From Flavobacteriales bacterium (GTDB lineage Bacteria; Bacteroidota; Bacteroidia; CAIKAF01), in assembly GCA_018401695.1 (NCBI GenBank), contig JAGYKD010000001.1, forward strand, positions 189,651 to 253,650: a DNA stretch of 64,000 nucleotides, in the 5' to 3' direction. The first letter of the stretch is position 1; the number at the start of each line of letters is the position of its first letter. Under the pieces are notes generated by a model. It saw only the letters and a list, made by a program, of their open reading frames with translations. It did no database searches and was not told the DNA's origin. Shown here piece after piece: positions 26,396 to 31,489 of this stretch. Both the position numbers and the translations under genes were made by a program.

Positions 26396-27079
26396 TTATT
26401 CTCCCATACGCATAAGCGAAGGCAGTCCCGATTCACGCTTATAAGAGGCGGGAATACTAAGCACATTCTCCTCCAGTTCCGCCAAAGGCTGAATTTTAGT
26501 AACGGTCATAATCATAAACAAACCGTCCATGCCCGGCACGGGCAACTCCGTCTCTACTTTCATAGGGAAACCGGGCAAATCGAGCCCCGAAGCATTGGTA
26601 GCACCGGATTTACCCTGGGTAGCAGGCTTAAAATCCTCCGTAATCCAATACTTGGCTTTCATCACTTGATCACCCTCGGTAATTTCTACCTCATAGAGGC
26701 GACATTTGTAGCCCATAATGGTGGCCTTTTCTTTAGCCTTGGTTACCTTGTTCTTGGGCGTATCGTTATCATCTTCCATCTCCGAAGCAGAAACAGTATT
26801 GATTTTTTCAGATCCGTGATTGATGATAAAAATGCTGTCCGTGGCTTTATCGTACAAAATATCTCCTATCATTGCCGCTTGCATGCCACCAATCATTCGA
26901 GTCAATGCTCTTTGTTTGGACACAATATTTTCAGAGGCATTAGGCAGCATACCCTCAGCTCCCGGAATATCTTGACTATAGGTAATGGAATAGTGAATCA
27001 GACCTTCAAATGCGTTTTGGGCTTGCACACCTAATGCTGCCAAAACCATAAAGCCAAAAGAAAGAAGAAAACGTTTCAT
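26396..27079 (-). CDS. Exported DUF4412-like / GLPGLI-like protein
   Basis: 227 residues. A signal peptide ends at VQAQ (about residue 18). It starts its mature part with EGLIHYSITYSQDIPG, then has a DKATDSIFIINHG strand pattern and the motif ATIMGYKCRLYEVEI, which resembles DUF4412-type periplasmic proteins of Bacteroidota. The function is unknown. It is followed by a strong terminator and preceded by a TATCTTTG box. Confidence 0.7.
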   Translation of the reverse strand: MKRFLLSFGFMVLAALGVQAQNAFEGLIHYSITYSQDIPGAEGMLPNASENIVSKQRALTRMIGGMQAAMIGDILYDKATDSIFIINHGSEKINTVSASEMEDDNDTPKNKVTKAKEKATIMGYKCRLYEVEITEGDQVMKAKYWITEDFKPATQGKSGATNASGLDLPGFPMKVETELPVPGMDGLFMIMTVTKIQPLAELEENVLSIPASYKRESGLPSLMRMGE

Positions 27080-27096
27080 ATTATACATTTAGTGAA

Positions 27097-27109: not shown

Positions 27110-29014
27110 TCAGGGTTCCCAACGAAGCGAATTAACCATTGTTTGGATATCTCCATGCAAAAAAGATACCACGGGGGCCAAACTATCGTAATTGGCAGTA
27201 AAGTTAAAGTATAAGCTACCCCTTAAAAAGTGTCGGCTTGAGTCGGTCAAATAAAATTGAAAGGGAGTCGCTGCCTTTCCTTCCAATTTAAACAAAGTAC
27301 CAAACACCGCTTCCTTTGGCCTCCGAATTATCTGCTGTCCTATGGCTGAGGCCATCATGGAGTGGCCACTAAACACTTGCTGGTGGGCATCATCGATCAA
27401 GTCACCCAAAGACTCCGGTGAAGTTATAGGCAAATAGGTAAGGTAGAGTGCTGCATTAAAGCGGGGATAATCCAAATTAAACCAACAGGGATTTGCCATT
27501 TCGCTGTTGCCCACGTAGGGGCGGACCTTAGCTCCCTCAAAATGGTAAAAAACAAAAGGGCAATCGCCGGCAAAGGGTACTGTATCGTGCGGGGGAAGTG
27601 TTATGGAAGGATAACCCCTGGGTTTAGGCACCGAAGGCGTTTCTCCACAAGAAAAAATCCAGAAAGCCAATAAGATCAACAAGAAAAGCATAGGGAAACG
27701 CTGCTCCTTTAATTGATTGGGAGCGCTCAGCTGCACTTTAACACGCTTAATTCTTCGTGTATCGGCCGATTCTACGGTAAACGTTATGCCCTTTAGTTCC
27801 ATTTGCTCCCCTCTTAGGGGCATTTTGCCGTGCAAATGCAGCAGTAAGCCGGCCAAGGTATCGGCCTCTTGCCCTGCTTCACCCAAATGATCAAAAGGAA
27901 TATCTAAAATCCTACAGAGCTGGACCAAGGTGGTTTTCCCCTCAAAAACGTAGTTGAGGTTGTCCAAACGGGAATAGACCACCTCCTCGTCGTCGAATTC
28001 ATCGTTGATTTCTCCTACAATCTCCTCAATAACATCCTCAAGAGTAATGATTCCGGAGCTTCCGCCATATTCATCTACCACAATGGCCATGTGCATTTTC
28101 TTTTCTTGAAACTCCTTTAGCAGGTCATCGATGGGTTTATTTTCCGGAACAAAAAAGGGCTTTCTTACCAAATTAGCCCAAGGAAAGGATGCCGGCTGGT
28201 CCAAGTGAGGCAGCAAATCTTTAATGTATAAAACCCCCTTGATTTGGTCAAAAGAGTCGGTATATACCGGAATGCGTGAGTAACCTGATTGAAGAATGGT
28301 TTCCAGTACCTGCATGAAATCAAGGCTGGAATCCAGGGCCACTACGTCTATCCGAGGTTTCATGGTTTCGCTCACCGAAATTTGGCCAAACTCCACAATG
28401 CCCTTCCAAATTTTCCTTTCTTCATCCGACACGGAATCGTCGTGAGTCATATCAATAACGGCCGATAATTCATCGGGACTAAGCGCAGCCGGACTACGTT
28501 GTAATTTTCGGTCAAAAATACGTCCCGAAGCTAGTAGTATGGTGCTTAGCCATCGGGTTAAGCGTTCTGTTACAATCAAGGGGCCTGTCATAGCACGAAT
28601 AAGCACCAATGGGCGTTGGGTAGCAAAAACTTTGGGAAGGATTTCGCCAAATAATAAAATCAAAAAGGTTACCGCTACCACCTGAAAAAGAAACACAGCC
28701 CAATATGGCCAAAGATTGCTTAACCTCAACGAATCGGTGAGTAAACCGGAAATAATAACAATAGCAATATTTATAAAATTATTGGCAATAAGAATGGTGG
28801 CCAGCAACCTACGGGGGTGGCCAAGGAGCTTTCGAACGCGTAGTGCCAATCCCGGTTTTTCTTGGTCTAAGGCATCCAGACCTTTAGCAGAAAGACTAAA
28901 AAAAGCCACTTCAGAGCCAGAAATAAGGGCGGAAAGTAATAATAAGACAGGCAGAATAAACCACCAAATCAAACTAAAAGGGTCGTCGTTACCGTTGGCT
29001 AAGGGAATGTCCAA
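27110..29014 (-). CDS. gldE-gldD: GldE-GldD fusion, gliding motility-associated membrane protein
   Basis: One uninterrupted 634-codon frame covers what are normally two adjacent genes. Residues 1-441 are GldE: an N-terminal DUF21 membrane part (about 15-140), CBS domains with YSRIPVYTDSFDQIKGVLYI and MAIVVDEYGGSSGIITLEDV, then a CorC_HlyC domain. Residue 442 begins MLFLLILLAFWIFSC, a typical lipoprotein signal with lipobox, followed by GldD features (PKPRGYPSITLPPHD, CWFNLDYPRFNA, FYLTDSSRHFLRGSLYFN). GldD is needed for gliding and type IX secretion in relatives. Either this is a true fusion with an internal membrane anchor, or gldD is also translated from its own ATG at 27691. ssb precedes it, the conserved order. 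Confidence 0.88.
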   Translation of the reverse strand: MDIPLANGNDDPFSLIWWFILPVLLLLSALISGSEVAFFSLSAKGLDALDQEKPGLALRVRKLLGHPRRLLATILIANNFINIAIVIISGLLTDSLRLSNLWPYWAVFLFQVVAVTFLILLFGEILPKVFATQRPLVLIRAMTGPLIVTERLTRWLSTILLASGRIFDRKLQRSPAALSPDELSAVIDMTHDDSVSDEERKIWKGIVEFGQISVSETMKPRIDVVALDSSLDFMQVLETILQSGYSRIPVYTDSFDQIKGVLYIKDLLPHLDQPASFPWANLVRKPFFVPENKPIDDLLKEFQEKKMHMAIVVDEYGGSSGIITLEDVIEEIVGEINDEFDDEEVVYSRLDNLNYVFEGKTTLVQLCRILDIPFDHLGEAGQEADTLAGLLLHLHGKMPLRGEQMELKGITFTVESADTRRIKRVKVQLSAPNQLKEQRFPMLFLLILLAFWIFSCGETPSVPKPRGYPSITLPPHDTVPFAGDCPFVFYHFEGAKVRPYVGNSEMANPCWFNLDYPRFNAALYLTYLPITSPESLGDLIDDAHQQVFSGHSMMASAIGQQIIRRPKEAVFGTLFKLEGKAATPFQFYLTDSSRHFLRGSLYFNFTANYDSLAPVVSFLHGDIQTMVNSLRWEP

Positions 29015-29035: not shown

Positions 29036-29527
29036 TTAAAAGGGTAAATCATCGGTTCCGTCACCCGAAGGCGGAGGAGGTGGATTAGTTGCGTGGTGCG
29101 AGGCTTGCGCAGAGACGCCTTCGTTGGGATTTGGAGGGGCAGATGTAGTTTGCTCGCGAGCCGCCGCATAAGCACCTTGCTCATTTCCCTCTTTTCTTGA
29201 ATCCAACATGGTCATTTGGTCGGCTTCAATTTCGGTGATATACCTTTTTTGGCCTTGTTCGTCGTCCCAGCTTCTGGTTTTGATACGACCTTCGATATAC
29301 ACCTTAGAGCCTTTGCGTAAGTATTGTCCGGCAATTTCGGCCAAGCGCCGCCACAACACCACATTGTGCCATTCTGTTTGTTCTATTTGAGCACCTTCTC
29401 TATTCTTATACGTTTCACTGGTGGCCAGAGGAAATCGACATACTTGGGTACCATCACCAAAAGTTTTGGTTTCGGGGTCTTTACCTAAATTGCCTATAAG
29501 AATTACTTTATTTACGCTGCCTGCCAT
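29036..29527 (-). CDS. ssb: Single-stranded DNA-binding protein
   Basis: 163 residues. The OB-fold domain covers about 1-110 (NKVILIGNLGKDPETK, TEWHNVVLWRRLAEIAGQYL, YIEGRIKTRSWDD). A low-complexity linker with Asn/Pro follows and the acidic tip DDLPF ends the protein, which recruits repair and replication partners. It lies 21 bases upstream of gldE-gldD, the arrangement seen in other gliding Bacteroidota. A TATCTTTA box at 29546-29553 is a weak promoter candidate. Confidence 0.95.
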   Translation of the reverse strand: MAGSVNKVILIGNLGKDPETKTFGDGTQVCRFPLATSETYKNREGAQIEQTEWHNVVLWRRLAEIAGQYLRKGSKVYIEGRIKTRSWDDEQGQKRYITEIEADQMTMLDSRKEGNEQGAYAAAREQTTSAPPNPNEGVSAQASHHATNPPPPPSGDGTDDLPF

Positions 29528-29569: not shown

Positions 29570-30805
29570 TTACCAGCTGATGCTTAAGGTTCCATTTCCT
29601 GAACGAACGCCTTGGCTGTGGGTAATATTGCTGGAGCCGTTGCTTGTTACATAACTTGAGCCTCCCCCGGCACCATTAATTTGCATTCCCCCGCCGCCAT
29701 ACCATCCGCCACCGCCACCGGTTCCGTAGCAGCAACAGGCCGAATTCGACAATCCATTTCCTCCAATACCAAACACTCCGGAAGGAGCAAAAGCTTGACC
29801 CGGAGAGCAGCCCCCATTGTTGTACATTCCTCCGGCGCCACCGGAGCTTTGGGTGCCCCCTTGTGCCCAAACGCCGTTTCCATTGGTAGACCCCTGTCCT
29901 CCGGTCAATCCACCTCCGGCACCTCCATTGCCTTGGGCACCACCGCCGCCGCCACCGGCTACTAAAATTCGATCGCTAAGGCCCGTACCGTTTCTACGGA
30001 TATCGGTAGCTCCGCCACCACCGGCTCCTGTACCAACGCCGGCACCTCCCCCGTTCCAACCTGCGGCGGGACTCGCTCCTGCTCCACCCACGTTTATTTG
30101 CAGTACTTCTCCCGGTGTCACGGTTAAAGTTGCCTGAACCCTGCCGCCCAAGCCACCTGCTCCTCCCGAAGTGCCTGAGCCACCTTGGGCGCCATAGGCA
30201 TCTACCTGTATGCTGGTTACACAAGCCGGCACGGTAAAGCTCTGGGCAGCTCCTGTGAAATTAAAAGTTTGAGAGCCACTGGGCGCACATTGACTTACCG
30301 TAATGCTGGTGGTATCTATGGTACTGCATCCGTTGGCATCGGTGATGGTTAAAATCACCTGAAACGTACCTGTGTTGGCCCAGGTAACCGATGGGTTTTG
30401 CACGTTGGAACTGGCCGGCGTACCTGACTGAAACTGCCAGGCATAAGTTGCGCCCGTGGTTGCAGGAGAAAAAACTACCGACTGAGTAGTAGAAGGGTTT
30501 GCCGGGCTGCTGGTATAGCTTGCCGTGGGAAAGCTTTGACACGCACAAGCCATTTGTGCCCAACCCGTAGGAAAGTAGGTTTCCATACATTGGCTGGTGG
30601 TGTTGTAAATGGTTAGCCCATGCGCCGGATTACCAATGCTGTTCCGCTGCACAGTAGTTAAGCGTGGAAAAAGCAAGCCTTTGTTGGAAGAAAAAACATC
30701 TAAAACGGCCGATGGATCCGGATTGGCAGTATTTATCCCTACTTGCTGGGCATTTAAAACTATGCTAAAAAAAGCACAGAACGCTAAACAAACGATAGGT
30801 TTCAT
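29570..30805 (-). CDS. Secreted glycine-rich protein with PKD domain
   Basis: 411 residues. A signal peptide ends LNAQ (about residue 20). It is followed by the Bacteroidota surface-protein segment VGINTANPDPSAVLDV, a PKD-like Ig domain (about 90-170, ATYAWQFQSG and NTGTFQVILTITDANGC), and a large glycine-rich domain from about 175 to the end. That domain contains GGGGATDIRRNGTG and GGGGGGAQGNGGAGGG, a pattern like the glycine-rich region of ALK-type receptors that also occurs in bacterial adhesins. Several CC pairs occur near the C-terminus. No obvious type IX sorting tail is seen. Probably surface or extracellular. Confidence 0.72.
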   Translation of the reverse strand: MKPIVCLAFCAFFSIVLNAQQVGINTANPDPSAVLDVFSSNKGLLFPRLTTVQRNSIGNPAHGLTIYNTTSQCMETYFPTGWAQMACACQSFPTASYTSSPANPSTTQSVVFSPATTGATYAWQFQSGTPASSNVQNPSVTWANTGTFQVILTITDANGCSTIDTTSITVSQCAPSGSQTFNFTGAAQSFTVPACVTSIQVDAYGAQGGSGTSGGAGGLGGRVQATLTVTPGEVLQINVGGAGASPAAGWNGGGAGVGTGAGGGGATDIRRNGTGLSDRILVAGGGGGGAQGNGGAGGGLTGGQGSTNGNGVWAQGGTQSSGGAGGMYNNGGCSPGQAFAPSGVFGIGGNGLSNSACCCYGTGGGGGWYGGGGMQINGAGGGSSYVTSNGSSNITHSQGVRSGNGTLSISW

Positions 30806-30865
30806 AAACAAGATTTATCCAAGCAAATTAGCCATTGTTTACACAGTAAAAAAAGACTTTTATCT

Positions 30866-30901: not shown

Positions 30902-31489
30902 TTAAATCTTTTTGCGGATAGATAACACTACCAAAATAGAAACCCCAATGGTTATGGCGGTGTCTGCAAAATTAAAGATGGGCCTAAAGATAGGGTCGCC
31001 GCCAAGATAGGGTACCCAATCCGGCCAGTGCACCGTAAAGTGCAACATGTCCACAACTTTACCTTGAAGAAAGGGAGCGTAGCCACCTTCGGGAGGAAAA
31101 GCTTCTGCCAATTGAAACACATGACTTTCGCTAAAAATAATTCCGTAAAACATAGAATCTAAGATATTCCCTAAAGCTCCTGCAAAAATGAGGGATAAGC
31201 TAATCACCAACCAGCGGTTCTTTTTTTTGCGCACCAAGTCAAACAGCAGATATCCAATGAGGCTAACCGCAACAATTCTAAAAATGCTTAGAAAGAGCTT
31301 TCCGGTGCTGCCACCTAGCTCAATCCCCCAAGCCATTCCATTGTTTTCAATAAAAAACAGCTCAATAAGCCCTGGAATTAAACGTACACTTTCCTGTAAC
31401 TCAAAATGGGTTTTGATGTAAATCTTGGTCCATTGGTCAAAAACCAATATGCCAAAGATCAACAGCAATGGAAGGCGTAGGGCTTTCAA
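30902..31489 (-). CDS. lspA: Lipoprotein signal peptidase II
   Basis: 195-residue inner-membrane aspartyl protease that removes signal peptides from prolipoproteins. It has four hydrophobic helices, the FFIENNGMAWGIE segment, GALGNILDSMFYG with the first catalytic Asp and PIFNFADTAITIGV with the second. It is slightly longer than the E. coli enzyme, with an insertion around residues 130-150. The ATG overlaps the stop of the DksA-like gene as ATGA. Confidence 0.95.
   Translation of the reverse strand: MKALRLPLLLIFGILVFDQWTKIYIKTHFELQESVRLIPGLIELFFIENNGMAWGIELGGSTGKLFLSIFRIVAVSLIGYLLFDLVRKKKNRWLVISLSLIFAGALGNILDSMFYGIIFSESHVFQLAEAFPPEGGYAPFLQGKVVDMLHFTVHWPDWVPYLGGDPIFRPIFNFADTAITIGVSILVVLSIRKKI

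Follow-up and report, generated by a model that had tools for sequence, protein, structure and literature searches.

In a Flavobacteriales bacterium of the Bacteroidota, the genes for GldE and GldD are joined in a single reading frame, and this fusion is real, conserved and recurrent. Judging from patterns in the sequences, the gene probably encodes a two-protein precursor that would be cut by the lipoprotein signal peptidase LspA into GldE and lipidated GldD, made in a 1:1 ratio. The stretch of DNA analyzed, referred to here as the window, comprises 64,000 nucleotides of contig JAGYKD010000001.1 (assembly GCA_018401695.1). Coordinates are positions within the window, and all features described lie on its minus strand.

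One frame spanning GldE and GldD

The fused gene, recognized from its frame and from NCBIfam profiles, occupies positions 27110-29014 as one stop-free frame of 634 amino acids that runs from a TTG start codon at 29012-29014 to a stop codon at 27110-27112; no in-frame ATG precedes the first membrane segment. Residues 23-429 match the NCBIfam profile for GldE (TIGR03520) at 507.7 bits, against a curated cut-off of 376, and residues 448-633 match that for GldD (TIGR03512) at 180 bits, against a curated cut-off of 120. Pfam domains follow one another in the order CNNM, CBS, CorC_HlyC and GldD_lipo. The in-frame fusion proposed in a preliminary description of this DNA is thus borne out, with both halves above their curated cut-offs, as is its placement of a lipoprotein signal at residue 442.

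The GldE half contains the elements of its family in the expected order. A CNNM transmembrane domain (residues 21-198, 28421-28954; PF01595, E 1.5e-30, with structural matches to the archaeal CorB 7m1t) is followed by a CBS pair (about residues 213-336, 28007-28378; two stretches of PF00571, with matches to CBS pairs in the PDB) and a CorC_HlyC transporter-associated domain (residues 351-429, 27728-27964; PF03471, E 6.4e-17). CNNM proteins carry cytoplasmic CBS domains, and from this family knowledge the CBS pair of GldE is placed in the cytoplasm. A hydrophilic linker (residues 430-441, 27692-27727) then leads into the internal lipoprotein signal. The signal MLFLLILLAFWIFSC starts at residue 442 (codon 27691-27689), its hydrophobic segment MLFLLILLAFWIFS spans residues 442-455 (27650-27691), and its cysteine, residue 456 (27647-27649), is the predicted lipid attachment site and the +1 residue of LspA cleavage. 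The mature GldD domain makes up the remainder (residues 457-634, 27113-27646; PF25593, E 7.2e-53; TIGR03512 above cut-off) and has a dN/dS of 0.07-0.10 between congeners. As is usual for GldD, the protein has a lipoprotein signal and a lipobox cysteine, MLFLLILLAFWIFS-C456; the signal is internal, not at the N-terminus of a separate polypeptide with its own start.

In both of two AlphaFold models of the fused protein, the GldE and GldD halves are each predicted with confidence, whereas pLDDT drops below 50 at the junction, residues 433-467, the stretch to which the linker belongs. Their pTM is low (0.45 and 0.37), and the relative position of the two halves is therefore undefined. In a structure search of the PDB the GldE half matched solved CNNM/CorC proteins; the best 50 matches were to CNNM/CorC proteins only and are uninformative on the GldD fold.

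Directly upstream of the fused gene lies ssb (29036-29527; TIGR00621 above cut-off), and lspA lies about 2 kb upstream (30902-31489; NF011369, 228.6 bits, cut-off 200), so that the peptidase needed for the cleavage model is encoded in the same window. GldK, a marker of type IX secretion, is also encoded in the genome and scores above its cut-off. Two predicted secreted proteins with no NCBIfam match are encoded nearby, one of 413 residues with a Gly-rich C-terminal half between ssb and lspA (29570-30811) and one of 230 residues directly downstream of the fused gene (26396-27088). No second gldE or gldD was found in the bacterium's own genome, where the closest sequence is a CNNM paralogue of 29% identity, and a separate extra gldD elsewhere in the genome was rejected on this basis.

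Conservation and recurrence of the fusion

The assembly behind the window is a draft in 19 contigs, so the fused frame might be an artifact of sequencing or assembly, or one genome might have lost a stop codon very recently. In a search of 119 relatives, however, the uninterrupted fused frame was present in six of six genomes of the genus, with identities to the window protein of 94% in the sister species and 54-56% across the deepest split. Substitution rates were calculated for three congeneric pairs (window/L003, L004/L005 and L006/L007). Synonymous differences reach 0.43-0.69 in the GldE and GldD domains, and dN/dS is 0.02-0.10 in both. The junction of 34-35 codons evolves fast (dN/dS 0.2-0.6) yet contains no indels and no stops in these pairs. 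Such synonymous divergence without a linker indel or stop, together with the frame in five other congeners, is explained neither by chance nor by sequencing error. With the same open frame also found in other families, an error or a recent stop loss is ruled out, and we give it next to no probability.

Across a sample of 395 Bacteroidia genomes, the fusion was found without a stop in 26 (counted from the results table), distributed over the families coded f1, f4, f5, f10, f21, f28 and f61. By family search it is present in 8 of 11 genomes of f61, 6 of 8 of f28, 3 of 9 of f10 and 2 of 7 of f4, and the search of f61 yielded two fused genes beyond the 26. Among the matches listed from 396 genomes sampled across the phylum, the window's own genome alone showed the fusion. 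Most relatives have gldE and gldD as separate, adjacent genes, as the preliminary description had stated. In separate pairs, the gldE stop precedes the first codon of mature GldD by a median of 74 bases, and the two genes share an ATGA overlap in 24 of 95. The adjacency and frequent overlap of gldE and gldD, with products that probably cooperate in gliding and type IX secretion, would explain why the fusion has arisen repeatedly. No published report of a GldE-GldD fusion was found in the non-subscription literature searched, which did not include the paper that first described gldD and gldE.

On a protein tree of 123 rows, 27 of them fused, the fused state requires 11 changes, each of which is imposed by branches with good support; a second tree of 59 rows under a mixture model likewise gave 11 changes, 10 of them forced. 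The fused genes form at least 8 separate groups on these trees, which were built by a quick method and do not by themselves separate fusion gains from splits. Some fused genes nest among very close separate relatives, as L015 does beside L228, with end branches of about 0.02. When L015 is compared with L228, L117 and L225, the signal peptide and linker are almost wholly different and the GldE and GldD domains nearly identical, a divergence of the junction that is also seen in separate genes. Since junctions differ while the flanking domains are nearly identical, the stretch of signal and linker appears to undergo unusually fast evolution or exchange.

Start codons and the internal lipoprotein signal

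The window contains an ATG at 27691 with the motif AAAGGAG upstream, and the preliminary description had offered, as an alternative, that gldD is also translated from this codon. The gene would then produce both the long form and a separately initiated GldD. In the sister species (94% identical), however, the upstream AAAGGAG is unchanged and ATC stands in place of the ATG. A usable ATG upstream of the signal core is present in 5 of 27 fused genes, and so missing from 22, compared with 88 of 95 separate gldD genes (Fisher p 9e-14, a contrast among sequences related by descent, not independent trials, so that the p value overstates independence). In ten fused genes none of the codons ATG, GTG and TTG occurs at a usable GldD start, and fusion is therefore obligatory in those ten; as in a polyprotein, one obligatory frame covers two otherwise separate proteins. 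Furthermore, initiation at 27691 would yield a signal of 14 residues without Lys or Arg. Of 91 signals from separate GldD proteins, by contrast, 87 include Lys or Arg within their first eight residues. Being neither conserved nor followed by a strong signal, the start at 27691 was rejected as a general route to GldD, and joint production of both forms from an internal start of this kind seems quite improbable.

The TTG start of gldE is widely conserved. Of 123 gldE frames, 92 offer TTG as their first available start, mostly with Asp or Glu as the next residue, and 77 frames have no ATG upstream of the first membrane segment; at the same loci, 88 of the 95 gldD genes that stand alone possess a usable ATG. 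This pattern suggests selection for weak gldE initiation.

The lipobox has been retained in the fused genes. In all 27 distinct fused sequences the cysteine is preceded by a small residue (Ser in 16, Gly in 7 and Ala in 4), and the hydrophobicity of the signal core is unchanged at 2.83, compared with 2.93 in separate genes. In contrast, the positive charge in front of the core has faded, the ten preceding residues carrying a net charge of 1.59 in separate genes but 0.26 in fused genes (Mann-Whitney p 6e-9, again overstating independence as the sequences are related). Positive charge at the N-terminus is required of a free signal peptide, but not of a segment placed behind a membrane protein that is already inserted and ends in the cytoplasm. 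Loss of charge before the core would therefore be expected if the upstream membrane domain, instead of an N-terminus, sets the orientation. Thus the predicted internal cleavage site, as expected of a polyprotein, has been kept by selection and persists in 27 of 27 fused sequences, while the charge and start codon that precede it have mostly been lost.

Proposed maturation of the fused product and known systems

In the proposed precursor, GldE, with its cytoplasmic CBS and CorC domains, would insert into the inner membrane as a CNNM/CorC-type protein. From its cytoplasmic C-terminus the chain would run on through the short linker to what was once the signal peptide of GldD, and this segment would cross the membrane in an N-in/C-out orientation. 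Prolipoprotein diacylglyceryl transferase (Lgt) would then lipidate the lipobox cysteine and LspA would cut at the lipidated residue, leaving a membrane stub at the C-terminus of GldE and releasing GldD as an ordinary lipid-anchored protein. A single TTG start would in this way yield the two proteins in equal numbers. We infer the topology, lipidation, cleavage, stoichiometry and joint function from family knowledge of CNNM proteins and from sequence patterns. The arrangement suggested in the preliminary description, with cytoplasmic CBS and CorC domains and a periplasmic GldD, is consistent with this topology, in which an N-in/C-out segment lies between the two.

The main rival to an LspA-cut precursor is a protein that stays whole, perhaps lipidated but uncut. 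The preliminary description had favored a whole protein, in which the old signal becomes a permanent internal anchor that links GldD in the periplasm to a CBS sensor in the cytoplasm. The topology would permit such a product, many genomes have no alternative to the single frame, and a confidently folded domain lies on each side of the segment. An uncut anchor, however, would have no need of the small residue and cysteine that all 27 fused sequences keep and that constitute the signature of LspA cleavage, and in relatives the separate GldD is a free lipoprotein. Retention of the lipobox can also be reconciled with lipidation without cleavage. On this evidence cleavage is favored, and we consider a permanently anchored fusion unlikely.

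Going one step further, we would give slightly better than even chances to a broader interpretation of the LspA-cut precursor, in which GldE-GldD is a chromosomal bacterial polyprotein of several independent origins, matured by LspA, whose obligate 1:1 pair ties a CNNM-type ion transporter or sensor to the stability of the gliding and type IX machinery. That these two genes have been found fused in several separate lineages is strong evidence of a functional partnership. If LspA does cut the product, the gene would represent a natural bacterial polyprotein of a membrane protein and a lipoprotein, and would provide a clean test of stoichiometry and of the role of the CBS domains in type IX secretion.

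The cytochrome bc1 polyprotein of Bradyrhizobium japonicum (fbcH) is a precedent for a precursor of this kind: one chromosomal frame encodes two envelope proteins, and an internal signal sequence is cut by signal peptidase. That enzyme is a type I signal peptidase acting without lipidation, whereas the GldE-GldD protein has a lipobox and a predicted LspA site; by analogy, the difference in peptidase counts against the model. With the CNNM/CorC magnesium transporter family (MtCorB 7m1t, CorC 4hg0), the GldE half has in common the CNNM transmembrane domain, the CBS pair and CorC_HlyC, but none of the solved CNNM/CorC matches reaches as far as the lipoprotein signal and the GldD domain at the C-terminal end. 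The closest counterparts are the separate gldE and gldD systems, such as gldD (Fjoh_1540) and gldE of Flavobacterium johnsoniae, which belong to the same families (TIGR03520 and TIGR03512) and share the order gldE then gldD and the GldD lipoprotein signal. In those systems the two are distinct, often overlapping genes, whereas the fused gene described here is a single frame without a conserved gldD start.
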